Positions 5,156-57,895 of a stretch of DNA of 64,000 nucleotides are shown piece after piece. This DNA comes from Limnomonas spitsbergensis. Lineage: Eukaryota; Chlorophyta; Chlorophyceae; Chlamydomonadales. Each line of letters starts with the position of its first letter. Positions within the stretch are counted from its first letter, which is position 1. The notes beneath the pieces are model-generated. The model was not told where the DNA came from, did no database searches, and worked only from the letters and a program-made list of their open reading frames with translations. Location of the stretch: positions 558,001-622,000 of the forward strand of contig JAYJMM010000032.1 in NCBI GenBank assembly GCA_037349105.1, in the 5' to 3' direction. The position numbers were made by a program, and so were the translations under genes.

Positions 5156-5689
5156 GTCGTAAAAAATCACCTAAACATTGGTCCAGTGATCACGAAGTGA
5201 TAAATCAGGGTTAAGCCGATTCCTTAAAAAAAACTGACACCCCCCCCGCACCCCCACCAGCCATCATCACAAACACGCACACCTGACCAGTATCCCCATG
5301 TGGGGCCCCAGCTCGAAAGCTTGCCGGCATCCTGTGGGAGGGCATCAGTGCCGCACAGTAGATTTGAATTGCCTGCCCAGGCGTGTTAATAAACATCTTC
5401 TTAAATATCGCTTTCTGGGCAAATGATGATCGAGAAAACAGCTTAACAGATGTTCAACCGGTATTGGCTTTGACGATCAGACGTGTGACTGTCGGAATGA
5501 CACCTCACCTGCTCACGTCATTAATTTTGAGGGCAGGCCATTCGAATCTGCAGCACATCGATGAATAAATAATCCACGCCCGCTGGATCGGATTCAGGAG
5601 GCTTCTCAAAATGTATGGCCCTGGTACTGGTAATGGCCGGTAATGTACTGGTAAAGGCACATCAAATAAATCTTCCACCTTCATACTGC

Positions 5690-38702: not shown

Positions 38703-38706
38703 AGTT
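38703..38706. repeat. Target-site duplication AGTT (left copy)
   Basis: AGTT directly before TGTCGCACC. The same four bases follow the right end at 57892-57895. Confidence 0.6.
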
Positions 38707-38950
38707 TGTCGCACCATAAAGCAGTAACCGTGCCAAAATGGTGTAAGCTGTCCTTACTGCCTTAGAGAGGCTCAAACTACTCACAACTAAGGTTCAACAC
38801 CCGTACATACGTGCCTCTTGTACTACACTGCTGAGGTACAAGGGCTGTAAAGGGGTAACTTGGTACAGCGTACCGCATAAGAGCTAAGGCTGGTGTAAGG
38901 CTGGCCTGCCCGGGCGCCCCTAGCTGTGGGTACCGCCCCTACTTTACTCG
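38707..38950 (-). repeat. Terminal repeat segment A (3' end of element)
   Basis: About 245 bp, starting TGTCGCACCATAAAG on plus and ending TTTACTCGC at the junction with B. Identical by eye to A' at 39594-39838. Together with the following B it forms an 885-bp TG...CA unit (38707-39591). Confidence 0.9.
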
Positions 38951-39591
38951 CGATGGTTGCTTCTGGTCCGTGGTGGACTTCTTCCCCACTGAGTGGCGGA
39001 CACCTACGGGCGGACTCAGCGTCTACACGCTGGCCGCGAATGCGCAGCGCGTTAAGCTGTGGCTGGAACTTCTAGATGACAGGCGTGGATCTGGCCGCTT
39101 GTAGAGCTGCGACTAAAGGCCTGTCGGGTCGCGAACCCTGCAGGTCGTTATGAGTCACTTACCGCGTGTAGCGGGCGAAGCCGTAGCCGTAGACTGCGGA
39201 CGACGTGGTCCTAGGTAGGGCTGGGCTTCGGGTTAGGTGTTCTCGTGCTTGCTAGATGGCGGGGTCGCTGTTCTAGGCTTGACTGGCTTAGTGGTACTGG
39301 CTTTGATGCACTTCACTGGGTAGGTCTCCGAGATCTAGCCGGTGCTGGTTACAAATAGAGGCCTGTCCACTTAAAAGGAACGAAGTGAACGTCAAGCGTG
39401 CAAGCCGGGATTCAAAGGTCCCGGCAAGCCCTATGCACTGAGTACGGGAAACCCTGCCTCAGACCTTCCCGAAAGTGGGAAGCTGGGCTCCTAACCCTAA
39501 AAAGGGGGCTCCGCAGGGAAGCTGCGGAGTCTACGGGGACGCGTCAGCGGTCCCTACGGTTTTGGCACGTATACTGCATTATACCGTGACA
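38949..39591 (-). repeat. Terminal repeat segment B, 3' copy
   Basis: 643 bp, identical by eye to 57249-57891. Contains a perfect hairpin (CTCCGCAG-GGAAG-CTGCGGAG, 39509-39529) and the 24-bp sequence 39364-39387 that is complementary to the primer-binding-like site. A small antisense ORF recurs in both copies and is not considered a gene. Confidence 0.93.
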
Positions 39592-39593
39592 GC

Positions 39594-39838
39594 TGTCGCA
39601 CCATAAAGCAGTAACCGTGCCAAAATGGTGTAAGCTGTCCTTACTGCCTTAGAGAGGCTCAAACTACTCACAACTAAGGTTCAACACCCGTACATACGTG
39701 CCTCTTGTACTACACTGCTGAGGTACAAGGGCTGTAAAGGGGTAACTTGGTACAGCGTACCGCATAAGAGCTAAGGCTGGTGTAAGGCTGGCCTGCCCGG
39801 GCGCCCCTAGCTGTGGGTACCGCCCCTACTTTACTCGC
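39594..39838 (-). repeat. Terminal repeat segment A', internal copy
   Basis: About 245 bp, identical by eye to 38707-38951. It is joined to B through GC, so the junction reads GACAGCTGTC, a perfect 10-bp palindrome of two element ends. After it the sequence diverges into the element's 3' untranslated region. Confidence 0.9.
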
Positions 39839-40039
39839 CCCCCGCTCCTCACGAAACGCACACCGGGCGTGCGTGGGGAGCCGGACTAGGGGTGGTACTG
39901 AAACTGAGATCGGAAGAATATGTACACTCAGGCCTGGTCAGTTCCCTAACACGGAACCCTCTTAAACACCTGCAGACCTGATTGGCTACTCTCTGGCCTG
40001 ATCAGGGCAAACAGAATCTGGTACCATCACAATTGTCAT

Positions 40040-40510
40040 GCGTGTTTGAAATCAAGAACCGTCAGACGACAGAACTCGTCAGAATCATAATTCCTCAGAA
40101 CCATCAGAAACGTCGGAACTCATAAGGAGGCAGCACTCCACAGAAACAGAAACAGAACTCGTCAGAGGTACAATTCCTCAGAACCATCAGAAACATCGGA
40201 ACCCATCAGGAGTCAGCACTCCTCAAAACCAGAAACAGAACTCGTCAGAACCCATCAGGCGTTACGGGAGTCAGTACTCCTCAGAGACAGAAACAGAACT
40301 GGTCAGAAGCATATTCCTCAGAACCATCAGAAACATCGGAACCCATAGGAGTCAACACTCCTCAGGACCAGAAACAGAACTCGTCAGAACCCATCAGACG
40401 TCATCAGGAGGCAGTACTCCTCAGCAACAGAAAAGAAACCTGTCAGAAATCATCAGAAGCGGAAATCCTCAGAACCCATCTGAGACTGGAATTGGAAGCC
40501 TACAGCTGGT
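40040..40510 (-). repeat. Tandem repeat in the 3' untranslated region of the retroelement
   Basis: Degenerate units of roughly 75-140 bp are built from CTCAGAACCATCAGAAACAT, CGGAACCCATCAGGAG, CAGCACTCCTCA and GAAACAGAACTCGTCAGAA. They lie between the pol stop (40696) and A'. Function unknown; packaging or polyadenylation roles would be guesses. Confidence 0.8.
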
Positions 40511-40695
40511 TGCACGAGACTGAACCTGACCTACAGAATCCTTCTGTTAATCAACCTCCACCCAAATAGCCGCTGCTCTCGCCCCACTGCACCGTTGACA
40601 CTCGGCCCTAAGCCTCAGGAGACGCTTGCAGTAGCAGCGGTGCTAACTCGAACCTGCCCCTAGGTAGCTGGCTCCGTGGCAATGCTGGTGTGCTC

Positions 40696-43600
40696 TTATC
40701 CCTCCTGGCCGTCCCCCCTGGCTGTCTGTCCCTTGGCAGCTGTCTCCTCCTCTGTACGTGCTGCGTCGGCGGCCGCTTTGGCCCTGCGTAGGACTGCCCT
40801 GGGTGTGACGTTGGCTTCTCCCCTGCCTGTTGTATATGAAATGTCATACAACCCGTTCGGCATGGGCCTGGCGATGCCCCGCTCCATTTGTTTGGTGGCC
40901 GGGTTGGTGGCCATGACCTCCACCTCAGGCTTGTCCATGGCTCCTGTCTCCTGGGCTGCTCTGGCGGCTGCCCTGGCTGCCCGTGGCGCTGCCCCCTCGA
41001 GGTGGGCTGGGGTGCAGGGTCCCGCAGCTGCGGCCGGGCCCGGCTCTTCGCTTGTCCTTGCTGCTGGCTTGCACCTGGGGCACATCCAATCGCCCTCGGG
41101 GATGGCGTGTAGCGCCGGCGTGAGGCAGTCCATGTGCCAGCCGGTATTGCATGCGTCACACAGGAGCATGACTTCCCCCCGGTCGGGTAGGCGGCAGACT
41201 TCGCAGGACAAGCTGATGTTGGGCCTGGTGGAGCCGAAATCCACCCTGCCTTTCAGGTTGGGGAGGTGGCATGGGGAGCAGTTGACTGCGTTCTCTGTTA
41301 CGGTCAGGCCATCGGCTCCCTCCAGCACCAACGCCCCCGTCTCCCCCAGCCTCTGCACCCGCAGGATTTCTGGCCTGGCCTTGGGGTCGAGGCTGCGTCG
41401 CTCTGAAGCGTACCGGACGTACACGTAGTCCCCAACGGCGAATCGCCTGACCTGGGGCACATATCCTCCTCCGCGGATCCTGGCGTAGCGCAACTTGTCC
41501 CGGTGCTGTGCGATCTTGAGGTGCTCCCCCGCGACCGGGAGGGCCTCCTTGATCCTGGCTACCCTGGCGAGGAGCAGGTCTGCGGCTTCCTCCGCTGTAG
41601 CCACTCGCGCTGTGCTCCACAGGTCTGCCCCGACCTTGGAGGGGAACACTGGCTTCTGACCGTACAGGACCTCGTAGGGGGCCATGCGTGTAGCCTGCTG
41701 AGGCGAGCATCGGAACCCCAGCGCTACCCATGGGACCATCCTGTCCCACGAGTCGTCGCTGCTCCCATCCCCGCAGCACTTGCGCAGGCCCGCCTTGAGT
41801 GTCTGGACCGCCCGTTCGGATAGCCCATCCGCCTGGGGATGGTTGGCAGAGGTGGTGCGATGGTCAATGAAGCAGTCTAGTAACATGTCTTGGAACTCTC
41901 CCTGGAACTCTGTCCCCTGATCGGTGACCACCTCTGCGCATCCCCCAAACCGTGCGACCACGTTTTGGAAGAATGCCAAGGCCGTCACGTCAGACGCCTT
42001 GCTGGGGATGGGGATAAGCTCCACCCACTTGGAGTAGTGTTCAACACACACCATGACGTACCGGTTGCCCCTAGGCGTGGTAGTGAACGGCCCGCACAGG
42101 TCCACACCCCAGCGGAAAAATAAACCCTCAATAGGGAGTGGGTGCAGGTCTGGCTGCGTGTGATTGAACGTGGACGCCCTTGCCCTGTCGCACACCCCGC
42201 ACTCCTGGACAGCCTTCCTGACTGCTGCCCTAAGCCCTCTCCACCAGTGCTGCTGCATGATCATGAAGGCCGTGCGGTGGCTGCCGAAGTGACCGGTGTT
42301 AGCGTGAGCTTCCCTGATGACTGCCTGTCTGTCCTCGGGCCTGGGAACTACACACCGCCGCCCGTCTGGCATCACTCTTATCAGCACGCCCCCTCTCTCT
42401 GGTTCCCACTGGAAAGGTGCGGCTCTACGTTGCACCCTGGCCTGTTCCCCTGCCTCTGCCCCTGCGGGGTGCCTTTTTGATTGCAGGTAGCGCAGGACTG
42501 GCACGTCTGTCCATACGTCCACCCCTGCGGCAGGTCCTGCAGCGCACCCTGGAGGGTCTACGACCGCCCCTGCCCCGTCGTCTGCACCCTGGACAGGCTC
42601 TGGTTCCGGGTCAGGCTGCCCACCTGGTTCCTGGGCGGCATCCGCCCAGTCTGCTGCCGCTGACTCCCCCAAGCACTGCCGATACGTTGCCGCTGCCTCG
42701 CCCTCGCCGGAGCATGCAGTGCCTGCACTGGCTAGGGCGCAATGTGTGGACGTCAGGGTCATGCCGATAGCCAGGTCGCTGTCCGGGCCTGGTAACCCAG
42801 CCCTGCGGGCCAGCTCCCTAGGGATGATCTTGGCCGCCTCGAGGGCTATGGTGAACCAAGCCTCGAGAGCCCAAGCATCCATGCACCTGCCCAAGGCGGC
42901 CCTCCTATCGCCCTCAGGAAAGTCGTGGCGGGGCAAAGTGGACCCCACTGCGTACCCCATGGCCCTCTCCCTTTCGTTGGCATTGGGTTCCTGCAGGCCC
43001 CCCATGGGCCTGAACACCATGCCGATCTGCCCGTTCCGGAAAGCGTAGGATGCGGGGGTGGCCATGAGGCAGGGCAGCGCCCTCCTAGGTTGCCCAGATA
43101 CATTGATACGGTACCCGCCGTTATCGGGGCAGGCCACGACCTGCGCCCTACTGCCCTCGTCCAGAATGTCATCCACAATACCGTCGTGCGGCCTATGCGA
43201 TGCCTGGATAACAAACTCAATGTCTGCGGCTGGTGCTAGGTTGCCCCAGTAGTTGCGCGTGCGGTGGGCATAGGATCCCACCTGCGCTGCATCAAACAGG
43301 GAAGGCCTACCCAGCAACCGGCACACTTCGCCGAAAGCCTCTACGCTAGCCTTCTCGCTACGCTGGTTTAGCTGCATAGCGACATTTTCGATCAAGTATG
43401 CTGGCGGCCTGGCCCTTTGCAGGACCTGCAAGGAGCCTAGCAGCCTGATAAGCGGGAAGAAAGACTTGCTCCTGTCCCCCTCGAGCCCCTTGCCCTTGCC
43501 TGCAGCCGACAAGTCGTGACACTCCCATCCTGCTACCAGAAACCACTGGCGGCCCTGCTGTGCCCCAGCCTCTATGAAGTGCTGGGCAGTAATGGAGTAC

Positions 43601-46600
43601 ACGTCCTGGGGCAATGCCCTGAACGCCCCCTCGACGGCTGGCGCTGGGAGCAATAGCGGGTATTGCTTGTGCAGCTGCACCAGTCTTCCCCCCGCGATCT
43701 CCCGCATGGAGGCACTGGTATCGGCGTACAGATACTGCGTGACCGGGATGCCTGCCCTAAGCACCATCTCAAGCCCAGAGCACATACCTCCGAAGGGCTC
43801 GAACAGGACCACTCCCTCTCGTTCCAGGGCGTACACCGCCTCTGTCGGTAGGCATGCCGTATCCACCCCTGCATGGAGGTGGGCCGGGGTCGAGCGGGGC
43901 AGGTCGGTCAGCACATTGCTGATCAGGTTCCTGGCCCTGGCCCTGCTATTGAAAACTCTTTCTGCAGCGCTGGCAGGCTGTGCCTGCTCATCGTCCTCAT
44001 CCTTTGCGCTGGAGATAGCCTGGCCGCACGGGGCCACTGTACACGCCGTCTCGGCAGCCCGCAGGCGGCGCACGCTTCGCCTGCCCTCCTGTGCTAGGCG
44101 AACCACCTGATCTGCGTGCCACTGGTTTACCCTGCCTAGGCCTGTGAGCATAGCGACCTGTGGTCCGCAGGTGGTCTCACTAGGGGTGTGCGGCTCAGGG
44201 GTGACATCGTCTAGCCGTGCCCCTGTGCGGTCATTGGATGATGGGAGGGGGGACCTGGACGGGATATCTGCGTTCTGGTGGCAGGCCCCTGACCGGTGGA
44301 CAATGGTAATGTCAAGCTCCTGCAGCATGAGTGCCCAGCGTGCGTGCTGCCCCACTAAGGCCTGGTTATCCATGAGATAGGTGAGGGGTTCGTGGTCCGT
44401 GACCAAATGCACCTTGCACCCAAAGAGCATATGGCGGTACGTCCGGGCAGCGTACACAGCCGCGAGCATTTCCCCCTGAAACGACGAGTAGTTCTTTTCG
44501 CTTTTGTTCAGGGAACGGGAAGTGCAGGCGACCATGTACTCCCTGCCGCTGTCGTCACACTGCCCTAGCACCGCCCCTATACCCTGCTTAGAGAAGTCGG
44601 TGTACAACAGGAATGGCCGTGGTGGCCCCTTGCCGTCTGGACCCGTTCCGCTGTAGTCAGGTCTGCGCAGCACCCTGCCTCCCTCGCACATCTCAGTTTT
44701 GATCAGCTGAAACGCCTGGGCCTGTTCGGGCCCCCACACAAACGGGACCCCCTTGACCAGCAGTGCGTTGATGCATGCGGCCTTTCGAGAGAAATCCGGG
44801 ATGTAGCACCGGTAGAAATTCAGGAATCCCATGACCTCCTGAATGTTCTTGACCGATGCGGGTTCGGGCAGAGCCATGACGGCCGCTATTTTGGCTGCGT
44901 GCGGTGTGAGGCCTTGGGCCGAGACGTTGTGGCCGAGGTACTCTACCGTGGCACACCCAAACAGGGACTTGTCAGGATGCGCGCGTAGTCCTACTGCGTG
45001 GAGCATGTCTAGCATGAGCTCTACATGCCTGATGTGATCTGCAGGCGTGTCACTATACACCAGCAGGTCGTCAATGAATGCCACACAGAAGGAGCTCAGG
45101 CCTGCCCTGGCGATCTCTTCCTCCATCATACGCTGGAAGAAGGGAGGCCCGTTGCGCAGCCCAAAGTTCAACTTAGTGTACATCCAGAGTTCTGGGCCCA
45201 TCCAGAAAGCCGTCTTGGGCTGGTCCTCGGCCTTGATCGGGATCTGCATGAACCCTGACCTCAGATCCACCTTGCTAAATACTTTAGCTGTGCCCAGGTT
45301 CTGAAAGATAGTTTCCATCCTGGGGATGGCAAACTCCTGCTTGGCTGTGCGGAGGTTCATTCTCCTCATGTCGTGCGCAATGCGGTGATCTGACCACTCG
45401 CCAGTCTCGGCACACTTCTTGGCCGCTACGACTGAGTTGGCCGCAAACTTGATGGGCCCTCCCTGGGGGACCCTGACAATAATGCCTGCCTCTATCATGG
45501 GCTGGCACTTCTCTTTGAAAATGGCTGCTTTAGGGGGTGGCATGTCCCTTGCTTTCTGAAAGCACGAGCTGTGCTCGTCCTCTAGGGCCAGCGTAAACTC
45601 ACCCTGCGCACCGCAGTAGCCTGGCAGTTCCAGCATGGAGTAGGCGAACGCCCCTTGGCGGTCCCGCAGGCTCTGCTCCAGCTGCTCCTGCTGCTCCCCA
45701 GAGAAGTCGGGGTGCTTCCCGAGCAGCCACCCCTCTGCAGTTTTGACGTACTCTGAGGGTGCATGCACCACTCCTCCGGGCTGGAACATGTCTATGACTC
45801 CTCCCGCCAGCGGTTCCCCTGTCCCTGCCTGTGACCCTGCGCTGGACGTGCCCTGATCCCAGGTGCGTTGCGGACGGGGGGGCCGAGGGGCGGGCATATC
45901 CACTGGGGGTCGCAGCCAACCAGGCTCCAGCTTGGCGGCTGCCTCCCTGCTGCTGACGAATGCTCCTTGTCCGGCAGTGAATCCCCCTCCTCGCACGCCC
46001 CTTCCGCTGGCCTGTGCCCCGGGGAGGCAGGAGAGCAGGAGCCACACCAATGCCAGATGGCATAGGCAAGCCAGAAGGCCCCTGAATGCCGTGCAGGGGA
46101 GGAGACCCCTGCAGCCCGGGTGCTGCCTGGGGCAGGGCTGTGGACCTGCAGGCGCTGGCGGCGATGGCACGGCTGGCGGGCCCCGGTCCCCTGGTCCCTC
46201 CTGCCAGGAGATTTCCAGCTCCACCTGACTGATCCTGGCGGGCGGCGATGGGCACCCTGTGCTATTACTGGCGTCTCTTGCCACTGCTTTCCTGCGTCGT
46301 TGGCGCGCGCGGGTCCTGGCGTTCCTTGCCCTTCGCGCTGCTGCTGCTCTGACCTTGGAGGGGTCCGCTGGTCTGGTGTCGCCCTTGCTGGAGGGGGTCT
46401 GATGTCTCTCTGCCGTTGTTGGACCTGCGCAGCCTGTATCGGGTCTGTAAGCGCGTTCCGGGCTGACAGTCTGGGTTCTGGCGTTGTCGCTGCTCCTGGC
46501 TGCGCTGCGCGGCTGTCGGTCCAGCTGGTGGGGCTGGAGCATTGTTCGCTGGATGGCCTGGTAGTTCCATAGGCTGGTTCTCTCCGGAACCCCCCATTCC

Positions 46601-49600
46601 ACCGGCCAGTTGTCCAATGGCTCGCCTGCCTCTGGCCACCGCCCCTCGTCATGGGCCTTGATGAGTTCTGCCCCAATGGTCAGGATCTGGGCGTACTGGA
46701 CTGCGTGCATGGACGGCTGTAGGGGCTGGTCTGCTGTTTCCTTGTACCATTCCCTGAATGGCACCGGGCGCTGCTCCCTCCTTCTAGCCTGGTCGGCTTC
46801 GTCCTGCCTTCGTTCCTCGATGGCCTGCCTCACGTCAGAGACGGTGGCCCTGCTGTGCGTCGCTTTGAACACCACCTCCCGTTCGCCAGGCAAGGCTTCC
46901 TGCTCGCTGCACCACCAGCGCACCCCGAGCCTGGAGTCCTCCTCCATCTGCCTTTGCCTGATGAACCCCAGCGACTGGTTCCTTTCGGGGCATGCAATGG
47001 CTAAGTGCCCCTGGTGGAAGCAGATGGTGCACCTGCCCTCTCGCAGGCGTGGTGCGGGGCATGCGTGGTAGTCGTGCCCCTTTTTTCCACAGCGCTCACA
47101 CGGCTCGTTGTGGACTGAGTGGTGGCCCCACGCCGGGGGGACTGCATCGCTGCAGCCGCAGCAGGCCCACGCCCCCCGCCGGGTGCCTCCTACGCCCGGC
47201 TTGTTCATGCAGGCGCTGCAGGCTGTGGCGTGGCAGCGACAGCACCGCCGGCCGGGCTGATCTGTTGGACCGATGCGCTCCCCGCATCCCAAGCAGCTAG
47301 GCAGCCTGACCTCGGGGGTCATGCAGAACTGACACATCCTGGCGGTCCCTGTCCGTGGTGTTCTCATGCACAGGTCATGCCATGCTGTTCCGCATGCGCT
47401 GCACCAAATCAAGCGCTCGCCTGCGCGGGTCTGGTCGCATCCTGCGCACGGCTCCGTGTGCACTGGGTCTGAGCCATAGGAGCGGCCTGGGGACACGGCG
47501 CCGCCTGTACCTGGGCCCCTTGCCAGCTCTGGTGGCGGTGCCTCGCTGAGGGCCCTTAATCGGCCGCGGAACGCCTGCTTCAGCTCCTCCGCCGCCTGGT
47601 TGCGCCCCTGCAGCCTGGGGTCGGGGCTGGGGTCTGGGACCATGCTCAGCCTGTAACGCAGGCTGGCCTCGATGCGGCTGCCCCTGAGCTCGGTGCCTCC
47701 CTGGGGGACCGGCCATGGCACCCTGTCCTCGAGCCGTTGCCTGTCCCGCTGTGCCACAAATTGTCGTAACTCGTCATCCCACTGCTCCTTGCTGAGATCT
47801 GTTCCTCTATCGGGCTCCCCCTCGGCTGCCAGGTGTGGCGAGCCAGGGTCCTCAGGATCTGGATTGCTGGCCTCGCTGCCGGTGTCGCTGAGCCCTCTGC
47901 TCCAGTTGGGTGGGGCATCTGCCTGGATTCTCAGGGGTGCTACCGGCCCTGGCTGCTCTGCCGGGGCTCGGCTCTGCTGGCTGGATCCCTGCGTATGACC
48001 TGCTGAAGGTGCAGTATGCTCGCTGGGCACTGCCGCTCCTCCCTCTGATGGCTCGGTGTGCCTCGCTGTGTCTGCCGGCTCCCCCTCAGAGTCTGAGTCT
48101 GGCAGTAGCTGCGGTAGTCCTGTCAGGCTGTTCTCCTCGTCTGACTCAGGCCAGTCCACCTCGTAGTTGCCCCCCCTCAGGGAAGTGAAGAAAGATTGCT
48201 CCCTGCTGTCTGGCTGCAAGTGGAGGGTGGTGTCGTCGGGGCTATGAGCGCTGCCTGGGCTGGCCGCCTCCCTGAATGCTCCCCAACGCCCCCGCGGCGT
48301 CTCATGACGGTCCGCTATGCCCCTATCCAGCAGGCTTGTCAGATTCCTCAAGGCCTCATCGTAATTGCTGCAGCTGAATAGGGGGTGGAGCGTGACTGCC
48401 CCCCTGGGGTGCCATTGCTGCCACAGGCGGACGGTAGCAGCTGGGGCAGACCAGTGGGGCAGCAAGGAGGCTGGGACGCCGTTGTAGTAGGCTGCCTGCT
48501 CCACCCGTAACCACTGCTGTAGGCAGCTCTGCAGCCTGTCCTGGGCAAAGGCTGAGAGGGTAAGTGCCTCCTCGCCATGCCACGCGGTTGCGCCCATTTC
48601 TGGCGTGCCGTGCGCTGACACTTGCGTGGGGCAGTCGGCCCTCTCCTGGGGTGCCCACAGCTCGTCCACTATCTCGATGTTCTTGACAGCCGCTGACATC
48701 TGTCCTGGCAGCAATGTCCTGTTAAGGGCCATCATCATGATGGCCCATACCGCTGGGTCTGCCCCTCGAAAGGTAGCCACCGCGTGCTCCTCTGCCTGTT
48801 CTACAGAGGGGAACCGGTCACTCAGCACCCGGGTAGCTGTCTTGAAGAAGAACCACACGGGCTGGTCATCGCGCGTGGCGTGCATGTGCATCCACGCCCG
48901 CGGTGTCGGGTGCGCCCACCGCCTCTCCGAGTCCTCGTGGTAGTATGCCACCGCCAGCCTAACCGGGATAGCGGCCCTGGCGTCGCCCGGCTCGTACCCC
49001 CAGGGGACCGCCTGGCCCAAGACCTCTCTGGCGATGTCTCGCCCCCTCTCGACGATCGCTGGGCATTGGCGAGGCGTTCCTGGGTGGAGGATCCCGGCAC
49101 CGTCGTACCCGCTGTGGTCCCGCAGTGCCGCCAGGGCGTACGCCTGCCTGGCTGCCGCTTGTGTGGGTACGCAGACGGCCTGGTTGGCCAGGCACGGGTG
49201 GCAAGCGAGAGTCATGACGCAGGTTTCTGCCCATGGTGTCCGCATGAACCCGTCGTGGGCGTGCTGCCACATGCCGTATGCCCGTGCCGCGTCTGGTATC
49301 TCTTGGCTGGTCCTGAACTGCTCCTCTGCTGCGGTAATCCCCTCCTTGACGACGCTGCCCAGGAGTTCGCTGACGCAGTTGGCATAGAGAGGAGTTGGCC
49401 ACGTGGAGCTCATGAACTCTTCCATGGCCGTGCTAGGCCTGATGTGACCTTTAATGGCCGCAGCCAGGAGCCCCGCTGTGACAGCGTCCATGGGAAAGAC
49501 CAACCTTGCTACTGCCTGCATTGCTGCCTGTCTGTCAACACAGATGACTTCCCCCCGCGGTACGCACCAATGGTTTTGCAACCTGCACAGGCCGTCCGCG

Positions 49601-49839
49601 CCCGCTCCGGGAAGGGTGACCATGGCCGCTGTGGCGGCTACCTCTGGCATGTCTGTTCCTGCCGGGTACCACTGCACGAAGCAATGCCTAGGCCAGGGCT
49701 CGCCAGGCCCTGGGCCCGGTGCGTCGAGGTCCTCTGCGTCTTCTACTGCGCTGAGGTCGCTGTCTCCCCAGTGGTCTGGGTTCTGCGGCTCCTCTGGTTC
49801 CCACCTCTGCTCTCTTTCGCTGGGTACCTCCTCCTGCAC
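40696..49839 (-). CDS. pol: Retroelement pol polyprotein with DNMT3-like methyltransferase and two PHD fingers
   Basis: About 3047 codons counted from a GTG at 49839. There is no ATG, and the frame stays open upstream across the gag stop, so it is probably read by +1 frameshift from gag. Approximate domain order: unknown N-terminal region (1-790); PHD-like C4HC3 finger (795-840) and further Cys pairs; two zinc knuckles CERCGKKGHDYHAC and CTICFHQGHLAIAC (~915-950); hydrophobic segment LLACLCHLALVWLLLSCLPG (~1254-1273); RT (~1420-1640) with FIDDLLVYS; RNase H (~1735-1860) with YTDFSKQGIGAVL and VTDHEPLTYL; cytosine-5 methyltransferase (~2005-2335); integrase zinc finger H-x3-H...CGVC (~2505-2550); DDE core (~2580-2675) with GVDLCGPF, VTDQGTEF and ADGLSERAVQ; APYEVLYGQKP; and a canonical C4HC3 PHD finger (~2882-2924). 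A methyltransferase between RNase H and integrase is exceptional. No tyrosine recombinase is seen. Confidence 0.95.
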   Translation of the reverse strand: MQEEVPSEREQRWEPEEPQNPDHWGDSDLSAVEDAEDLDAPGPGPGEPWPRHCFVQWYPAGTDMPEVAATAAMVTLPGAGADGLCRLQNHWCVPRGEVICVDRQAAMQAVARLVFPMDAVTAGLLAAAIKGHIRPSTAMEEFMSSTWPTPLYANCVSELLGSVVKEGITAAEEQFRTSQEIPDAARAYGMWQHAHDGFMRTPWAETCVMTLACHPCLANQAVCVPTQAAARQAYALAALRDHSGYDGAGILHPGTPRQCPAIVERGRDIAREVLGQAVPWGYEPGDARAAIPVRLAVAYYHEDSERRWAHPTPRAWMHMHATRDDQPVWFFFKTATRVLSDRFPSVEQAEEHAVATFRGADPAVWAIMMMALNRTLLPGQMSAAVKNIEIVDELWAPQERADCPTQVSAHGTPEMGATAWHGEEALTLSAFAQDRLQSCLQQWLRVEQAAYYNGVPASLLPHWSAPAATVRLWQQWHPRGAVTLHPLFSCSNYDEALRNLTSLLDRGIADRHETPRGRWGAFREAASPGSAHSPDDTTLHLQPDSREQSFFTSLRGGNYEVDWPESDEENSLTGLPQLLPDSDSEGEPADTARHTEPSEGGAAVPSEHTAPSAGHTQGSSQQSRAPAEQPGPVAPLRIQADAPPNWSRGLSDTGSEASNPDPEDPGSPHLAAEGEPDRGTDLSKEQWDDELRQFVAQRDRQRLEDRVPWPVPQGGTELRGSRIEASLRYRLSMVPDPSPDPRLQGRNQAAEELKQAFRGRLRALSEAPPPELARGPGTGGAVSPGRSYGSDPVHTEPCAGCDQTRAGERLIWCSACGTAWHDLCMRTPRTGTARMCQFCMTPEVRLPSCLGCGERIGPTDQPGRRCCRCHATACSACMNKPGVGGTRRGAWACCGCSDAVPPAWGHHSVHNEPCERCGKKGHDYHACPAPRLREGRCTICFHQGHLAIACPERNQSLGFIRQRQMEEDSRLGVRWWCSEQEALPGEREVVFKATHSRATVSDVRQAIEERRQDEADQARRREQRPVPFREWYKETADQPLQPSMHAVQYAQILTIGAELIKAHDEGRWPEAGEPLDNWPVEWGVPERTSLWNYQAIQRTMLQPHQLDRQPRSAARSSDNARTQTVSPERAYRPDTGCAGPTTAERHQTPSSKGDTRPADPSKVRAAAARRARNARTRARQRRRKAVARDASNSTGCPSPPARISQVELEISWQEGPGDRGPPAVPSPPAPAGPQPCPRQHPGCRGLLPCTAFRGLLACLCHLALVWLLLSCLPGAQASGRGVRGGGFTAGQGAFVSSREAAAKLEPGWLRPPVDMPAPRPPRPQRTWDQGTSSAGSQAGTGEPLAGGVIDMFQPGGVVHAPSEYVKTAEGWLLGKHPDFSGEQQEQLEQSLRDRQGAFAYSMLELPGYCGAQGEFTLALEDEHSSCFQKARDMPPPKAAIFKEKCQPMIEAGIIVRVPQGGPIKFAANSVVAAKKCAETGEWSDHRIAHDMRRMNLRTAKQEFAIPRMETIFQNLGTAKVFSKVDLRSGFMQIPIKAEDQPKTAFWMGPELWMYTKLNFGLRNGPPFFQRMMEEEIARAGLSSFCVAFIDDLLVYSDTPADHIRHVELMLDMLHAVGLRAHPDKSLFGCATVEYLGHNVSAQGLTPHAAKIAAVMALPEPASVKNIQEVMGFLNFYRCYIPDFSRKAACINALLVKGVPFVWGPEQAQAFQLIKTEMCEGGRVLRRPDYSGTGPDGKGPPRPFLLYTDFSKQGIGAVLGQCDDSGREYMVACTSRSLNKSEKNYSSFQGEMLAAVYAARTYRHMLFGCKVHLVTDHEPLTYLMDNQALVGQHARWALMLQELDITIVHRSGACHQNADIPSRSPLPSSNDRTGARLDDVTPEPHTPSETTCGPQVAMLTGLGRVNQWHADQVVRLAQEGRRSVRRLRAAETACTVAPCGQAISSAKDEDDEQAQPASAAERVFNSRARARNLISNVLTDLPRSTPAHLHAGVDTACLPTEAVYALEREGVVLFEPFGGMCSGLEMVLRAGIPVTQYLYADTSASMREIAGGRLVQLHKQYPLLLPAPAVEGAFRALPQDVYSITAQHFIEAGAQQGRQWFLVAGWECHDLSAAGKGKGLEGDRSKSFFPLIRLLGSLQVLQRARPPAYLIENVAMQLNQRSEKASVEAFGEVCRLLGRPSLFDAAQVGSYAHRTRNYWGNLAPAADIEFVIQASHRPHDGIVDDILDEGSRAQVVACPDNGGYRINVSGQPRRALPCLMATPASYAFRNGQIGMVFRPMGGLQEPNANERERAMGYAVGSTLPRHDFPEGDRRAALGRCMDAWALEAWFTIALEAAKIIPRELARRAGLPGPDSDLAIGMTLTSTHCALASAGTACSGEGEAAATYRQCLGESAAADWADAAQEPGGQPDPEPEPVQGADDGAGAVVDPPGCAAGPAAGVDVWTDVPVLRYLQSKRHPAGAEAGEQARVQRRAAPFQWEPERGGVLIRVMPDGRRCVVPRPEDRQAVIREAHANTGHFGSHRTAFMIMQQHWWRGLRAAVRKAVQECGVCDRARASTFNHTQPDLHPLPIEGLFFRWGVDLCGPFTTTPRGNRYVMVCVEHYSKWVELIPIPSKASDVTALAFFQNVVARFGGCAEVVTDQGTEFQGEFQDMLLDCFIDHRTTSANHPQADGLSERAVQTLKAGLRKCCGDGSSDDSWDRMVPWVALGFRCSPQQATRMAPYEVLYGQKPVFPSKVGADLWSTARVATAEEAADLLLARVARIKEALPVAGEHLKIAQHRDKLRYARIRGGGYVPQVRRFAVGDYVYVRYASERRSLDPKARPEILRVQRLGETGALVLEGADGLTVTENAVNCSPCHLPNLKGRVDFGSTRPNISLSCEVCRLPDRGEVMLLCDACNTGWHMDCLTPALHAIPEGDWMCPRCKPAARTSEEPGPAAAAGPCTPAHLEGAAPRAARAAARAAQETGAMDKPEVEVMATNPATKQMERGIARPMPNGLYDISYTTGRGEANVTPRAVLRRAKAAADAARTEEETAAKGQTARGDGQEG
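42830..43830 (-). other. DNMT3-like cytosine-5 DNA methyltransferase domain in pol
   Basis: Motif order is complete. Motif I is VVLFEPFGGMCSGLEMVLRA (SAM binding). Motif IV is VAGWECHDLSAAGKGKG with the catalytic cysteine. Motif VI is YLIENVAMQ. Motif VIII is AQVGSYAHRTRNYWGNL. Then comes RALPCLMATPASYAFRNG, and a motif X region with ERERAMGYAVG and ALGRCMDAWALEAW. The CHDLS after the catalytic Cys and the AHRxRxxWGN block resemble DNMT3 (CNDLS; AHRARYFWGN) rather than DNMT1 or bacterial Dcm. The residue before the catalytic cysteine is Glu, where nearly all C5 methyltransferases have Pro (PC). All other key residues look intact, so activity is plausible but unproven. It would be released or act within the polyprotein. 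Confidence 0.88.
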
Positions 49840-49954
49840 CCATGTCCTTTCTGTTGGTCCGTGCTCTGTCCTGCAGCTGCGGTGCCCGCTGCCTGCGGTT
49901 GGGGGCCGGCTGGTGACGCCCCCTGTGGCCCCAAGGGCCTGCAGCGTGAAGCTG

Positions 49955-52900
49955 CTACCGCCTCCTTCCGCGGAAGCTGCCGGCCTTGGGCCTGCGGCGG
50001 GGCCCCCTGCCTCCGGGGTACCTGCGTCCCTCTGGCGGTCCTGGCAGGAAGTTGGCGGGCGGGGCGCCTGCCTGCCTGGCTGCCCATACCTCGAATGGCT
50101 CGTTCTTTTCTGCCTCGAACAGGTCGCGAAGGTGTATGCGCTGCTGGTTGTCGCTGGGGGGTTCCTCCTGCCTGAGGCTACCGTGCCCCAGGTTGTCCTG
50201 GGCTTGCGCCCGGCCTTCGCCCCCGCCGCTGGGCCTCCAAGGCTGGGCCTGCCTCTGGTTGCACTCGAAGGCGAAGTGGCCGCTGCCTCCGCACTTGTAG
50301 CATGCTTCCTTCTGGGTAGGGGGTGCTCTGCCGGTCCTTCCCCTGGCAGAGTCCTCCGGCGGTGCCCACCTGATCATTCTGTTCTCCCCTGGCTCCTCGG
50401 CTGTCGCATGCCTACCGGGGCTGTGGTGCTGGCGTTGCCTAATGGGGCTTCTGGCTCTGCCCTGCGGCCAGCGCTCGCCGCAGGGGCTGCGTGGCGTCTC
50501 CCCTTCCCAGCGCCTGCCGCTCCCGTCCTCGTGTTCTCTGCTGCCGCGGTTGGATGGTTTCCCTGGGGTAACGGGACTGCGGCTGCGGGTTCTTCTGTTC
50601 CTGCTCCTGCCGTCTGGGCTGAGGGCCTCCCTGCCCCTGGGCCGCTGGTTGCCACCGCTGGCTCCCTGCGGGGGTGGAGGTGGCTGCCTGTACGGCCGGC
50701 GCTCGTCCTTGCACTGGATTCCTTTTAGCTGCTCGGTGCTTGGAGCCCGCCGCTCCCTGCTGTGGCTACTGCGCCGTGGGCTCCTTCCCCTTGGCTGACG
50801 CTCTGCGGCGCTGGCGCTCCTAGGCTCCCTGCCGCTGACGGGGTTGCTGCTTGGGCCGCTGCCTGGCTCCCTTGCCCGTGGAGAGGGGGTGCGGCTGGCC
50901 CTTGCCATGGGGAGATTTCTCTGCTTGGGCTTGGCGCTATTGTCCCTTAGAGACTGAATCAGATCCTCCGGGTACTCCCTTAGGGCAGGGTCGTCGAGCT
51001 CGTTCAGAACCTCCTGCACCTCAGTGGGCGTACCCCTGGACGTTCCTTCTTTGCCGTCCTGCTCTCCTCCCCTGGCCCCATCGCTTGGTGCTGCGTCCTG
51101 CTGTGGGGGCTCGATAGTTGTGTCCGCCTCAGGCTGCTGCTGCCTGGCCTCCCTTGCCCCGCTGCAGGCCTCCCGCAGGGCTCCACAGGGGCGCTGGGGG
51201 GCCGGCCCACTGGCTGCTTTTGTGCCCTTGTACTCCTCCTTGTACCTCTTTTTGAGCTCATTGACCTCTATGATCCACTTGGCGCACTCGCCCTTCCACC
51301 GGGCCATCTCCTTGTCCGAGGCGCCGTCCGCCATTGCCCGGGCCTGTTCCGTCTTGAAGGAATAAATGTCTGCCTCCCTGCTGGCGATCCTCTGCCTGGC
51401 TGCGGTCTGGATGGCTCTGTTCAGGACCTCGACCCGGGCCTCCAGGCAGCTGATGACGGCTGCCCCGGGCGCACCCCTGTCCGCCGGCAGCTCAGTCTCT
51501 GATTCGGTAACTCCCTCATCGCTGGAGCTGGTGTCCTGATTGTGCGTAGCCGGGGAGCCTGGCTGGCAGCTGCCTCTGCTGTGCGTGTCTGCCCCCTGGC
51601 CCGGCTCGTTCTCCAGGAGCTCCCCTAGCCGCCGCTCGCATTCCTGGTCTGAATGCGATCTGCGCATGTCGCAGTACGCGCACGTGCCTTCCCTGTTGCG
51701 CAGGGCACTCCTGACCTCCTGTCGGACTGTGTGCTCCTGTACCATGGCTAGCCTTGCCTTGTCCCGCGCTGCTACGGGGGGCTCCATGGCTTTGCCGACC
51801 TTGTCTCCGCTGATGGACCGGCTCCCGGTACCCCTGGTACCGTCCGGGTCCGCCGGCGCTGCGCGAGCTTGGGTAAGGGTTACTGGGTTTGTCTCGGGCG
51901 CTGCAGCAGGGTTGGTTCCCTTTTTCCCTGCGTGCTGGCGCGCTGCCTCAGTACCTGCGCCACGGGCCCCTTTGGCCTTGGCCGGCCTGTCCCCTTCTGG
52001 TGCTGTCGCCGGTGCCTCTGCCGCGGGCAAACGGGTGACACGGTTTGCGGCGACTGTAGTTTGCGTCGCAGGGCCGCCTGTACCTGTCACCATGGCACAT
52101 TGTGGGGTTAAGTCTGGGTTCATCTCGCCCCAATCTGCCGGCCACTCTTCAGGCACCCAGGCGGGGTCGTCCAAGCCTGCCCAGGTTGCCGCGGCTGCCT
52201 GGTGGGATCCTGCTGGTGATATCAGTTCTAGCGGCAGGGTGAGCTCGTCGGCTCCTCCTTGAGGGAACAGGGTGAGGCGCCCTGCGGCTTCTAGGATTCC
52301 CCCATACTTGAGGAATTCGGGGTTCCCTACCAGGTGCTCATACGCGTCAGGAGGCGTCTTGACCACCCTGACTGCTGCCTTCTCCACGATCGCATTCGGG
52401 CTTCCATACCCGTATACGACGTAGATGAACAGAATCCCGTACAGGTCTGCTCCTGCATTATCGGTTGTCCTGATCTTTTCATCCGTCCTCACCAGCTTGG
52501 CCCCCATGGCTACCAGCTGTTCTGCTATGTTGACGGTGATGACATGGCATGAACATGCCGTGTCCATTAGTGCCTTCTGGGCCACCAGCACCTTCCCTTT
52601 CACCATGAGGCCTACGCACTGGCTGTAATCTCGCCTGTCGTTTGTGAAGTATTGTAGCCTCGGGCTGATGGTGATCTTACGACCCTGACCTATCCAGCCC
52701 GGCTCACCACGGACCGGCGTGACTCCCATGGGCATGGTGGTGTGCGCCAGCGCTGTAAGTCGTTCGTTGATGTAGCCCACCTGCGCACGGACATCGCACA
52801 GGCCGTCAGCTAGTCGCCTAAGAGCAAGCCTTTTCTCTCCCTTCCTGGAAGGGTGTTCAACAGCCAGTGGCTCCTCCTCCTCCTCACTGCTAGAGGAGGG

Positions 52901-55900
52901 TCTAAAGGACCGCGGCCTGGCGTTGTGGGCTGCCTGCTTGTACTCTCCAGGCTTGGGTGCCAGCCCAACCTGCGTTAGGAGGGCCACGGACTCGCTGAGC
53001 ATTTCGGCCACCGTTTGGTGCCACCCATCCGGCTCAGCGAGCTCGGAGGGGCCAGAAAGGTGAGACAGATGAGCGGACTGCTGGCCATGCCCCGCCTGCC
53101 CCTGCGGCTGCCTCTGGGCCGGCCTGCCTCCTTGGTTCCTGTCGTAGGTCCTGTTCACGGGTGGCCCCTGTGGTCTTGGAGGCGGTGGATACTGCTGTTG
53201 AGGCGGCCGTGCCTGCCCCGTGGTGATGTCAGTGGCCAGGGGGGCAGGGCGGCGTTCATCTCTAGCCCTGGGAGTCCTGCAGTCCCTTGCCAGGTGGTCC
53301 AGGCTGCCGCATTGGAAGCAGGCTTTGGGGGCGCCCCCAGCGCTGTGGGTGCTGGTTGTCAAGGCTGTGGCTTGGTCGGCCCACGTGACGCCCTTGGCTC
53401 TGCTTTCCTGCCTGGCAGGCTGGCTGCTGTTCTGGTATGGCGCAACCCCTGGTCCATCCCCTCTGGGCCTGGCTTCCCACTGGCTGGGCCGATCCCGCCT
53501 GCCGCGCCCCGCCTGTTGCTCCCCCTGGCTCCTCTGCTGATGGTCTCCTGGTCCTTGCCTGGAGTCCATGGCAGCCAGGTCCCCCAATTCCAGGGCGAAC
53601 CTCTCCCACAGCAGTACCTGCTGCGTCAGAACCTCTACCTGGGCCTCGTCTGTCATGTGCAGGTATCCTGGCACGGTCATGATGAACGCTGTCAGCTTCA
53701 CCCTGACTGCCCCTGGCAGCCCTTCGTAGAACATGTGGGCTACCGAATGCCTCCTGCCGAAGTGGTCCACTGCGTCTCTGGAGATTTGCAACAGCTCTGC
53801 TGTAGACATGACTCGGAAGGCGAATGCCTCCACTGTCTCCTCTGGCTTGACGCCTGGGTCCAAGGTGGTCTTGACCCCGAGTTTCAGGCCGGTGATTGCT
53901 GCCCTCTCATCTGAAGTCGGCTTGCCCACCTCCCTTTGGACCACCCTGATCCACAAGGTTAGCAAGGACACCTCACAGGTCGGCTCCTCCACTGGGGCTC
54001 TCCATGCTTCCCGGATCCGCTCGACCTCCCTGGAAGCTTTGTCTCCTTGCGGCGCTGATCGTATGGCGACCACCAGTGGGCCCACGCAGGCCGGCTTGGC
54101 TGTCCACATATCCACCAAGGAGCGGACCAACAGGGCCATGGCTGAAGGAGACTGGCAAGATCCTGCAATCTCGCCAGCCACCACAGCCAGGGCTGGCGGC
54201 TCGTCCGATAAAGCCAGGCGGTTGTGCGAGCCCCAAGAGCTGCAGGCCTGGCAGTATTGCCTGGCTGCGACTGCCCCCGGGTGGGACATGTCCAGCACTG
54301 GCACGTTGCCCTGAATGTTGGGGATCTTGGTGAACCGCGTTCCACCAGCCAACTGCAGGATCATCTGTTGCTGCAGCCGTATGTTTGTCTCCGCCTGCTC
54401 TTGGGCTATCCTTTCCCTTCTGCGCCTTGCAGATTCCCTGCTGGGGCCTGGGCCGCGCCCCTCTGTATCCTCCGAGCTTGACATGCTGGGGTCCGAGCCA
54501 GATCCGCCGCCGCCGTTCCTGGTTGGGCTCTGCCTGCGCCGATCCCGCTGGTCTCTGCGGTCCGCGCTCAGGTGGGATTGCCTTCTACCGGATGGCCTAC
54601 TGCCCTCCGAAGGCTGCCTTGCCGGGTCCTGGCTCCTACCCCCTTCTGACTCTGCCTGCCTGCTGGGCTGGTAGCTGCTATGCCTGCTGGGCTGCGTTCC
54701 ACCTGTGTACTCCCTTGCCTCGGAAGCTGACAGGCAGTCGTCCCTGCTTTCCTGTCTTTGCTGGTAGTCTCCCCCCGTGGGGCCCGCCGGGTTGATTTCC
54801 TGAACGACCCTCCTTCCTTGGCTGGGGCCTTGGCTCCTCTCCGGCCTGCCTCGTGCCTGCGCTGCTTGTCCTCGCAGGAACTCAGCAATGTGATCCACCT
54901 GGCTTTCCTGGCCACTGTGCTGATCTACGAAGCGCAACAAGTCGTGAGATTCTTGCCTGCTGGCCCTCCTTGGCGCTGGGTCCTGCTGGAAGCTGGTTGC
55001 CCTGGGCTGTTCGCTGGCCGCTGGGCTGCTGGGTCTGGGTCTGCGCTCTACGTCTAGCCGCTGGTTTCGGAGGCTGGGCTCACTGCTGGCTTCCAGGCTC
55101 TCCCATCTGGCCTGTCGTGCAACAGGAACGGTCCCTTCCGTCTGCTGCTGCCATTGCCCCTCCCTGCGGTCATCTTGCTGTAGCCTGGATGCCTCGAACC
55201 CTTCCCACTCCTCGAGCTCCTCCTGCTCTGATTCGGGCTCCTCCAGATCCCCTGCTGTGCCGCTGCACCACTTGTCGGCAAAGGCTTTGACAGCCAGAGC
55301 CGCCTCTGGCCCTGCTGGTCCTCTGGACACTCTGCGCAGGGCCGCCAGCAGCGTTGCTCGGTCCTGTCCCGTGTGCGGGATGCCCATAAGGGCCTTTGTT
55401 GCCCATTCCGCCAAGTGGTGGCTTTGGAACTCCTTGATAGCCCGGGCCTGATCGCTGAGGTGGACGAAACACTTGGAGCACACCTGCTGCCATAGCCGCC
55501 CTGCCCATTGCAGGATGTCTGCCCATCCAATGGGCTGGAGTCCTGGTGGCTCTGCTGCACCCGGCTGGCTTATGGTCCCTGCGCGTTCTCCCGCTGCCGG
55601 GCGCCGTTCTCCTGGGATGGGCGTCCACTCTGGATTGCTGAAATATCCGTAAAGGCTATGGGCCTGGCCGCTGTCCTCCTTTTCCCTGCTGGTGCCCTCT
55701 GCCACGGTCTCCTGGCTTGGCCTATTTGCACTGGCCGGGAACCTGGACTGGGGTGTGCCGTACGTTGACGCCTCTGTTGCTTCCTCTGCCGGGATACGGG
55801 GCGGCCTTGCCTGTTTCACCCTGTGCGGATCTGGCCTGGGCGGGATTCCCGTTGGCGCCTGCATTCTTCCGTGCTGATCTGGCGGCACTACCTTGGCGTG

Positions 55901-56581: not shown

Positions 56582-57224
56582 TTTCTATTGCTGGGTGCTG
56601 AGCAGCCGTGCCGGCTCGCTGTGTGGGCTCACAGCAGCAGGTCACTGGCTCAAAGCCTGCTTCCGTTCTCCTCTACCTTCTGCAGGCTGGTTAGGCGTCG
56701 CTAGACAGGTCAAGCACGGGTAAATTTTTTTTAACCTGGTTCTGGCGGATATTTTCACCTTCTGGACTGCTGTCTCGTCCGCTATCTTGCTGGTCTCGTC
56801 CGCTATTCCTCCGCTGATTCGTCGCGCAGCTTCCTCCTCGATCTCCGCAGGGCCTGCTCAGGCTGCAATCTGCAGCTTCGGATATTCCTGCACACAGTCT
56901 TGGGTTGCCTGCTTTTAAACTCGGATCCCAGATCCTTGCTCACTTCTGTCAACACGCAGGCTGTGCACTCTACCACGGATGCAGGCCACGTGCACAGGTA
57001 ATATCAGCTGGGTTTATAACTCCACAGCCTGATCTTCAAGCTACGTCTGCTTCTGGGTTGCCACGCCCAGCGCAAGCAGGAATTGACTTGGGTTCTATGG
57101 AGAATCCTCTGCTAAGTGATTTTGAGCTGTCCAAGGTAGATCACTGCCTTCAAAAAGAAATTCAAGTTCACAGCACATGCACCTTTAGCAGGATTCGCTG
57201 GATCAAGCTGATCAGGCTTAGACC
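56582..57224 (-). other. Retroelement 5' leader
   Basis: About 640 bp between the primer-binding-like site and the gag ATG. It holds no long ORF in the sense direction. Packaging and translation signals would be expected here. Confidence 0.6.
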
Positions 57225-57248
57225 CACTTCGTTCCTTTTAAGTGGACA
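57225..57248 (-). promoter_or_regulatory. Self-complementary primer-binding-like site
   Basis: In sense direction the 24 nt directly after the 5' B repeat (TGTCCACTTAAAAGGAACGA, then AGTG) are the perfect reverse complement of 57687-57664 within B, about 205 nt from the element's 5' end. Tf1-type Ty3 elements prime reverse transcription by folding the mRNA 5' end onto a site just inside the LTR. The position here fits that model if transcription starts near 57687. A tRNA primer is not obvious. Confidence 0.6.
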
Positions 57249-57891
57249 CGCGATGGTTGCTTCTGGTCCGTGGTGGACTTCTTCCCCACTGAGTGGCGGA
57301 CACCTACGGGCGGACTCAGCGTCTACACGCTGGCCGCGAATGCGCAGCGCGTTAAGCTGTGGCTGGAACTTCTAGATGACAGGCGTGGATCTGGCCGCTT
57401 GTAGAGCTGCGACTAAAGGCCTGTCGGGTCGCGAACCCTGCAGGTCGTTATGAGTCACTTACCGCGTGTAGCGGGCGAAGCCGTAGCCGTAGACTGCGGA
57501 CGACGTGGTCCTAGGTAGGGCTGGGCTTCGGGTTAGGTGTTCTCGTGCTTGCTAGATGGCGGGGTCGCTGTTCTAGGCTTGACTGGCTTAGTGGTACTGG
57601 CTTTGATGCACTTCACTGGGTAGGTCTCCGAGATCTAGCCGGTGCTGGTTACAAATAGAGGCCTGTCCACTTAAAAGGAACGAAGTGAACGTCAAGCGTG
57701 CAAGCCGGGATTCAAAGGTCCCGGCAAGCCCTATGCACTGAGTACGGGAAACCCTGCCTCAGACCTTCCCGAAAGTGGGAAGCTGGGCTCCTAACCCTAA
57801 AAAGGGGGCTCCGCAGGGAAGCTGCGGAGTCTACGGGGACGCGTCAGCGGTCCCTACGGTTTTGGCACGTATACTGCATTATACCGTGACA
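57249..57891 (-). repeat. Terminal repeat segment B, 5' copy
   Basis: 643 bp, identical by eye to 38949-39591. In sense direction it begins TGTCACGGTATAATGC and should contain the promoter. It is followed by the primer-binding-like site and not by segment A. Confidence 0.93.
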
Positions 57892-57895
57892 AGTT
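57892..57895. repeat. Target-site duplication AGTT (right copy)
   Basis: AGTT directly after the terminal CA; pairs with 38703-38706. Confidence 0.6.

Follow-up and report, generated by a model that had tools for sequence, protein, structure and literature searches.

A DNMT3-type methyltransferase domain within the pol frame of a split-repeat Ty3/gypsy element, and its probable insertion by way of a two-LTR circle

The 64,000-nucleotide stretch of DNA analysed here (the window) carries on its minus strand a Ty3/gypsy retrotransposon with a DNMT3-type cytosine-5 (C5) methyltransferase domain in its pol frame and with terminal repeats split into two parts, A and B (Table 1). The insertion is recent, to judge by the identity of the A copies and of the B copies within the element. 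The best explanation for it, and a probable one, is a recent insertion that primed its own reverse transcription and passed through a circle with two long terminal repeats (LTRs), which its integrase would have opened once. The host is likely a green alga, given the TTTAGGG telomere repeat of the genome and the nearest named element, which is that of Haematococcus lacustris.

The pol frame is a single stop-free minus-strand frame of 3225 aa, continuous from reverse transcriptase (RT) to integrase (IN) as an earlier preliminary description of this DNA had stated, and its best match in the PDB was Ty3 (Gag-Pol, E 1.7e-69). Pfam matches followed the RT-RNase H-DDE integrase order of Ty3/gypsy retrotransposons, with the methyltransferase lying between RNase H and integrase. 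The Pfam DNA_methylase profile matched aa 2278-2342 of the frame with 21.7 bits, slightly below the curated 22. DNMT3A was the closest solved structure in a single-sequence search with the domain (E 7.7e-7); in a profile search against structures it ranked ahead (1.4e-22) of DRM (2.5e-14), HhaI (2.1e-10) and DNMT2-type enzymes (2.2e-7), and DNMT3A/3B came first both by sequence and by the 7-row profile. The best 50 of 170 matches (E <= 0.001) in a fold search were all DNMT3 (best E 4.2e-14), using a structure model with a mean predicted local distance difference test score of 79.5 and a predicted template modelling score of 0.84. By profile and fold the domain is thus a DNMT3-type C5-methyltransferase with predicted activity on DNA, in the position claimed for it in the preliminary description; the span proposed there, 42830-43830, was about right, the 7-row profile extending it to 42829-43884. 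A misassembled host gene was ruled out: in the genome searched (260 Mb, 124 contigs), at least 109 copies of the domain were scored of 1059 first-look candidates, and 94 of the 109 were stop-free within the match. Because only the best candidates were scored, copy counts are lower bounds.

Most of the C5-methyltransferase motif series reported earlier stood as described, namely FEPFGG (aa 2191), LIENV (2327), HRTRNYWGN (2370) and the catalytic Cys; motif IV, GWECHDLS (2282), proved to hold Glu-Cys in place of Pro-Cys. A Pro before the catalytic Cys is usual in known C5-methyltransferases. Across 66 retroelement domains the residue in this position was Glu in 52, Pro in 12, Ala in 1 and Met in 1, and the missing Pro was read as a variant of the DNMT3 type that gives no ground for exclusion. 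The catalytic Cys was present in 65 of the 66 (with one gap) and the Glu of ENV in all 66, and the H, R and R residues of HR.R were kept in 65, 65 and 66, respectively.

Comparison of the window domain with five clade II copies (clades are described below) gave ratios of nonsynonymous to synonymous substitution (dN/dS) of 0.088-0.108 at dS 1.36-1.62. Within clade I, the corresponding ratio for differences between copies (pN/pS) was 0.133 (28 of 30 loci stop-free, 378 pairs), compared with 0.089 for the pol sequence upstream (21 loci, 190 pairs) and 0.110 for that downstream, which includes the integrase (23 loci, 231 pairs); 20 upstream and 22 downstream pairs were left out for low ungapped identity. 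On these ratios the methyltransferase is kept by purifying selection along with the rest of pol, which is the firmest functional statement to be made about it. That it is nonetheless a passenger, whether inactive or structural, or else an enzyme acting on RNA, is unlikely: replacement of the Pro in 54 of the 66 domains would suit such a role, as would the lack of activity in yeast of a related enzyme from Klebsormidium, a result judged inconclusive by its authors (de Mendoza 2018, PMC5890265), and against it stand both the conservation of the catalytic residues and the purifying selection on the domain.

At least three clades of the element were found in the genome: I (to which the window copy belongs), II (~79% identical in the domain) and III (~40%, L047). 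Seven copies were examined for their ends, five of clade I (window, C39, C40, C102 and C35) and two of clade II (C17 and C4). All seven have the split order B-interior-A-gc-B-A with the palindrome GACAGCTGTC at the A1-B2 junction, even though the B repeat of clade II is only 67% identical to that of clade I. In the window, blastn aligned B1 with B2 over 646 bp with a sole mismatch just beyond B. The 4-bp target duplications vary in sequence among the copies and are exact in six of the seven. The copies examined thus have the TG...CA ends and short target duplications of Ty3/gypsy elements, but none of the seven carries a full LTR at each end as such elements do, KnitGypsy-Dnmt3 (see below) being a known exception. 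Split direct repeats are also a feature of DIRS/PAT elements, which have a tyrosine recombinase, not matched by Pfam in the window element's frames of >=250 codons, and which insert without a target duplication. Description as an ordinary LTR pair was rejected, since the two ends have only B in common and A stands twice at one end.

The putative primer-binding site next to B1 complements the element's own sequence, which would suit self-priming of the Tf1 kind, over 24 perfect nucleotides in four of the seven copies and over 16 nt plus a bulge in three, the matching stretch of B being presumed to be the 5' part of the RNA. Clade II has its own 24-nt primer and site pair, which differs at 6 of 24 positions and is again perfect. 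Because the primer site follows B and a purine tract precedes A, the ends of the complementary DNA (cDNA) would be ...CGCG (end of B) and AGTAAAG... (start of A), giving ordinary A-gc-B LTRs. The B-A joint at the 3' end of the element can be compared with this expectation. Forty 3' ends were fetched, out of 100 listed of 357 purine-tract matches and from contigs early in that list; they are not fully independent, as L079 and L080 show the two sides of a single joint and L096 and L097 share a flank and may be duplicates. Among the 31 that reach A2, the B-A joint is a blunt union of the proposed cDNA ends in 29, and one extra base is present in two. The spacing from A to A is 886-889 in 14 of 16 copies having two A matches. 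The exceptions are C39, whose B2 is truncated at 326 and followed by GTAAAG, and C103, in which 22 nt of the primer site are retained ahead of TAAAG. Two more joint errors involve the B end, which runs into an inverted, cut B on C21 (the whole primer site being retained) and at C4:5531k; faults of this sort would be expected if cDNA ends are joined. A layout with B-A as the LTR and cDNA ends at A-gc-B was also considered and is disfavoured by the position of the primer site after B, by that of the purine tract ahead of A and by the joint errors, which sit at the end of B.

The proposed cycle would run as follows. Transcription would start within B, and the first 24 nt of the RNA would prime minus-strand DNA on the site after B1; plus-strand DNA would begin at the purine tract ahead of A1. 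The product would be a linear cDNA bearing ordinary A-gc-B LTRs, whose ends would be joined to form a two-LTR circle. The DDE integrase would then open this circle once, at GACA-GC-TGTC within one LTR, cutting after CA with loss of the GC, and the opened circle would be inserted with a 4-bp target duplication, yielding the split order B-interior-A-gc-B-A. The methyltransferase would most likely act on the cDNA, the circle or the fresh insertion, and the PHD finger may guide integration.

Several points weigh against this cycle. Repeat order, target duplications, primer complementarity and kinds of joint can be read off the copies directly, as can the domains and the selection on them; the RNA start, the circle, the integrase cut and the time and target of methylation are deduced from these. 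The yeast result with the Klebsormidium enzyme also counts against the cycle. The order B-A-gc-B-interior-A, expected if the other palindrome were cut, was seen in none of the seven copies, which the model leaves unexplained. Family III (~40% identical) has the palindrome once and no A2 within 3 kb. In C35, C102 and C40 the primer site is one base short, so that renewal of the site from the primer does not always occur; in C4 the target duplication matches at 3 of 4 bases. Finally, in nine of the 40 3' ends the sequence read contains no A2. Three of the nine run from B into an inverted B: L079 and L080 (one joint, G000:C21:287690-288594), where the B end with the entire primer site meets an inverted, cut B tail to tail, and L069 (G000:C4:5531464-5532224), where the B end is joined in the same way. 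L084 enters a clade II B, and the other five lack any repeat.

Templating of the split repeats, with A2 copied from RNA in each round, TGTC/GACA as the true cDNA ends and the circle unneeded, is somewhat less likely still than the passenger role considered above. Inheritance of this kind predicts identical B-A joints, as found in 29 of 31, and the A copies and B copies are identical in the window element; but with the primer site after B, minus-strand synthesis would start upstream of A2 and leave it uncopied, and the primer-site remnants at the B end in C103 and C21 mark that end as a cDNA end. It is very improbable that the element follows a DIRS/PAT-type cycle, in which a tyrosine recombinase from another element integrates the circle and the DDE integrase is a relic. 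Split direct repeats are indeed typical of PAT-type tyrosine-recombinase elements, for which they have been described, but DIRS1-like insertion makes no target duplication according to the same account (PMC3266345), and 4-bp duplications in six of seven copies and TG...CA ends speak against it. So does the conserved integrase region (downstream pN/pS 0.110), and none of the seven frames of >=250 codons in the element matched a tyrosine recombinase in Pfam. The window element combines PAT-like split repeats with DDE-type insertion.

A broader version of the two-LTR-circle cycle is possible, if a little short of an even chance: that an old green-lineage Ty3 line integrates from end-joined two-LTR circles, with the palindromic integrase site in mid-LTR, every insertion permuted and circularisation obligatory, and that the methyltransferase marks the circle as host DNA. 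If so, the two-LTR circle would be a genuine integration precursor. The idea that such circles serve as retroviral integration precursors was once proposed and has mostly been set aside. The repeat layout bears on this old question, and offers a concrete route to split repeats in a Gypsy element through self-priming, a circle, a palindrome and a DDE integrase.

The preliminary description had raised the possibility of an independent capture of the methyltransferase, which the evidence does not support for this alga. In homologue searches, in which only candidates sharing most words were scored, 33 homologous pols were found; 29 have the order RT-DNMT-IN-PHD, two lack RT or IN and two have the methyltransferase before RT. 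Many of the relatives with the first order are metagenomic elements, and a Cymbomonas protein in which no RT was found groups with them. The second order includes Closterium, and Marchantia proteins, again with no RT found, group there; together Closterium and Marchantia form a streptophyte sister group. In a tree of the methyltransferase (66 rows; excluded were P0016, which nearly duplicates P0017, and every row with <=250 profile positions, and one bacterial row was included), the two orders lie on opposite sides of one branch (39 and 13 labelled rows, 14 unlabelled) with support of 100/100, the bootstrap not being fully settled. A tree of RT and IN, for which 49 rows had sufficient length in both domains, has the same split (38 vs 11; Shimodaira-Hasegawa-like approximate likelihood ratio test 100). 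Distances in the methyltransferase and in RT+IN correlate with r 0.86 over the 49 elements and r 0.84 over the 38 with the order RT-DNMT-IN-PHD, and in either case 0 of 2000 permutations reached as high a value. Because both trees split by order and the distances correlate, the methyltransferase is, on the evidence of its phylogeny, a long-term resident of the lineage rather than something recently acquired in this alga. Capture from a host gene in this alga is the least probable of the alternatives, for the long branch that the window and clade II copies form on their own (0.89) is outweighed by the domain position common to the relatives, by the covariation with RT+IN and by the same domain arrangement in the Haematococcus element. 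No host DNMT3 and no rows named Klebsormidium were among the homologue-search results. A scan of IMG/VR gave at least 80 loci whose C5-methyltransferase matches covered parts of the query at 26-44% identity; these loci were not used further.

The closest published counterpart is KnitGypsy-Dnmt3 of the charophyte Klebsormidium nitens, described as a Dnmt3 within a Gypsy Pol, with DIRS-like repeats and under purifying selection (Ka/Ks under 0.2; PMC5890265). Like it, the window element carries a Dnmt3-type domain in a Gypsy Pol, has DIRS-like repeats and is under purifying selection, and it is of the same kind; it differs in its probable host, and the likeness is drawn from the published description rather than from a comparison of sequences. 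SymbioDIRS-Dnmt3 of dinoflagellates, of which two copies methylate CG in yeast (PMC5890265), likewise has a Dnmt3 domain in pol, with repeats in the order A-coding-B-A-B, and differs in having a tyrosine recombinase in place of the DDE integrase. Methylation of the element's own cDNA, already proposed by de Mendoza 2018 (PMC5890265), is a hypothesis compatible with a cycle that includes a circular stage. In foamy virus, the integrase cuts a palindrome after CA on both strands, leaving a 2-nt 5' overhang, and 36 of 40 clones had kept the palindromic two-LTR joint (Delelis et al. 2005, PMC1180852). A palindrome on a two-LTR circle, cut after CA on both strands, is common to foamy virus and to the model for the window element; in the virus it is the LTR-LTR joint itself, whereas in the window element it lies inside the LTR, so that opening the circle would permute the element.

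A 2025 survey (PMC12344493) cites the de Mendoza 2018 case for streptophytes and dinoflagellates. Among the papers listed in literature searches, no earlier report of a chlorophyte Gypsy-Dnmt3 or of a circle reading for Gypsy-Dnmt3 elements was seen. As far as that literature goes, the new points are the probable placement of the host among chlorophytes, how widely the lineage is spread, the Glu-Cys motif and what priming, target duplications and joints indicate. Known before from a charophyte, Gypsy-Dnmt3 elements now extend to Haematococcus, Cymbomonas, Closterium, Marchantia and many metagenomes. Cytosine methylation commonly silences retroelements, and a lineage in which a DNMT3-type enzyme of the element itself is retained under strong selection is for that reason a test case for why a parasite would write the silencing mark.

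Two further comparisons are with other Ty3 elements. As in the self-priming elements of the Tf1 type, the putative primer site of the window element would complement its own RNA near the LTR; the complement is 24 nt as opposed to ~11 nt in Tf1, and the window element differs further in its split repeats. As in chromodomain-bearing elements, a histone-reader-like domain follows the integrase, with a PHD finger where those elements have the chromodomain. PDB matches of this finger were WSTF, CHD4 and KDM5-type fingers. Some fingers of these types read unmodified lysine 4 of histone H3, and the PHD finger of the element may guide integration or the methyltransferase.

Table 1. Features of the element in the window (window positions; A and B, the two parts of the split repeat)
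Feature	Position	Strand	Remarks
Whole element	38707..57891	-	19,185 bp; sense order B1-interior-A1-gc-B2-A2; outer ends TGTC...GACA
Target duplication AGTT, left copy	38703..38706		
Target duplication AGTT, right copy	57892..57895		
Repeat B1	57249..57891	-	643 nt, 5' end; same sequence as B2
Putative primer sequence in B1	57664..57687 (second copy in B2, 39364-39387)	-	Candidate RNA 5' end
Putative self-primer binding site	57225..57248	-	24 nt, abuts B1; perfect complement of stretch 205 nt into B
Gag-protease frame	49955..56584	-	2209 codons; two CCHC knuckles; protease-like DTACSC motif
Pol frame	40696..50373	-	3225 codons, stop-free; domain order RT, RNase H, C5-methyltransferase, H2C2 + DDE integrase, PHD
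Reverse transcriptase domain	44923..45375	-	Pfam RVT_1, aa 1667-1817, E 4.2e-22
RNase H domain	44317..44622	-	Pfam RT_RNaseH, aa 1918-2019, E 1.2e-29
DNMT3-type C5-methyltransferase domain	42829..43884	-	aa 2164-2515 by 7-row profile; fold
Integrase zinc-binding domain	42175..42339	-	Pfam Integrase_H2C2, aa 2679-2733, E 6.4e-12
DDE integrase core	41836..42111	-	Pfam rve, aa 2755-2846, E 1.1e-10; prototype foamy virus integrase chains among PDB matches
PHD finger, 3' of integrase	41071..41205	-	Pfam PHD, aa 3057-3101, E 1.5e-9, two stretches in pol frame
Purine-rich tract GGAGCGGGGGGCG	39836..39848	-	Abuts A1 on its 5' side; putative start of plus-strand DNA
Repeat A1	39594..39835	-	242 nt, same sequence as A2
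Palindrome GACAGCTGTC	39588..39597		Spans A1-gc-B2; proposed integrase site; once in window element
Repeat B2	38949..39591	-	643 nt
Repeat A2	38707..38948	-	242 nt; B2-A2 joint (38949/38948) = CGCG-AGTAAAG

The gag and pol frames overlap in different phases in the window copy, which probably carries a frame change between them, because an open frame of 5011-5514 codons with no stop in the match is listed for 28 of the 109 scored genome copies. The DTACSC motif in the gag frame was taken for that of a protease by eye; the protease had no Pfam match. Between pol and A1 (window 40055-40456) lie diverged direct repeats with a unit of ~83 bp, which found only a partial match in two other copies.

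Elsewhere in the genome, where relatives of the element number in the hundreds, the primer site was matched 328 times with <=2 mismatches and the A-gc-B pattern at 1045 sites. In the third clade (L047 and L203, G000:C3:762600-772500), GFMC stands instead of GWEC and the palindrome GACAGCTGTC occurs once, on the 3' side. LTR tandem arrays of head-to-tail A-gc-B with a unit of ~885-887 nt occupy G000:C15:1174570-1216233 (L064-L066) and G000:C18:10349-143633; the C15 array reaches the contig end, and the CGCG-AGTAAAG joint was also present in the array piece read. A further tandem array, at G000:C69:955937-987401, repeats the purine-tract/A-start pattern every ~547 nt, and at G000:C84:280231-308213 seven primer-site matches in one orientation, in steps of 4650-4666 nt, form a tandem array of a short element derivative.

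Three exon-like DNMT fragments of the genome (L005, L006 and L008) match HhaI and not DNMT3. No host DNMT3 was among the best-scoring candidates of the genome search, which one may have escaped. Further C5-methyltransferase genes were found in intronless settings at L001 (G000:C30), L002 (G000:C93) and L003 (G000:C14), and their neighbours look by eye giant-virus-like, such as a DNA-ligase-like frame beside the L001 gene. The TTTAGGG telomere repeat occurs at 5520 places, and the TTTTAGGG telomere repeat was absent from the genome search; the telomere of this alga is presumably not of the volvocine TTTTAGGG type.

Scans of the window for Rfam families (at gathering scores) and for transfer RNAs gave no matches. 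Long tandem repeats lie at 1-2518 (unit ~80 bp, 93-99% identity between shifts) and at 3383-5007, the latter with long plus-strand open frames. Broken reverse-transcriptase frames of the non-LTR type were found on the minus strand at 35649-37560 (RVT_1 E 1.8e-27 in 36802-37560), and a host-like gene with an ornithine/arginine decarboxylase domain (E 1.2e-77) at 12555-13550.

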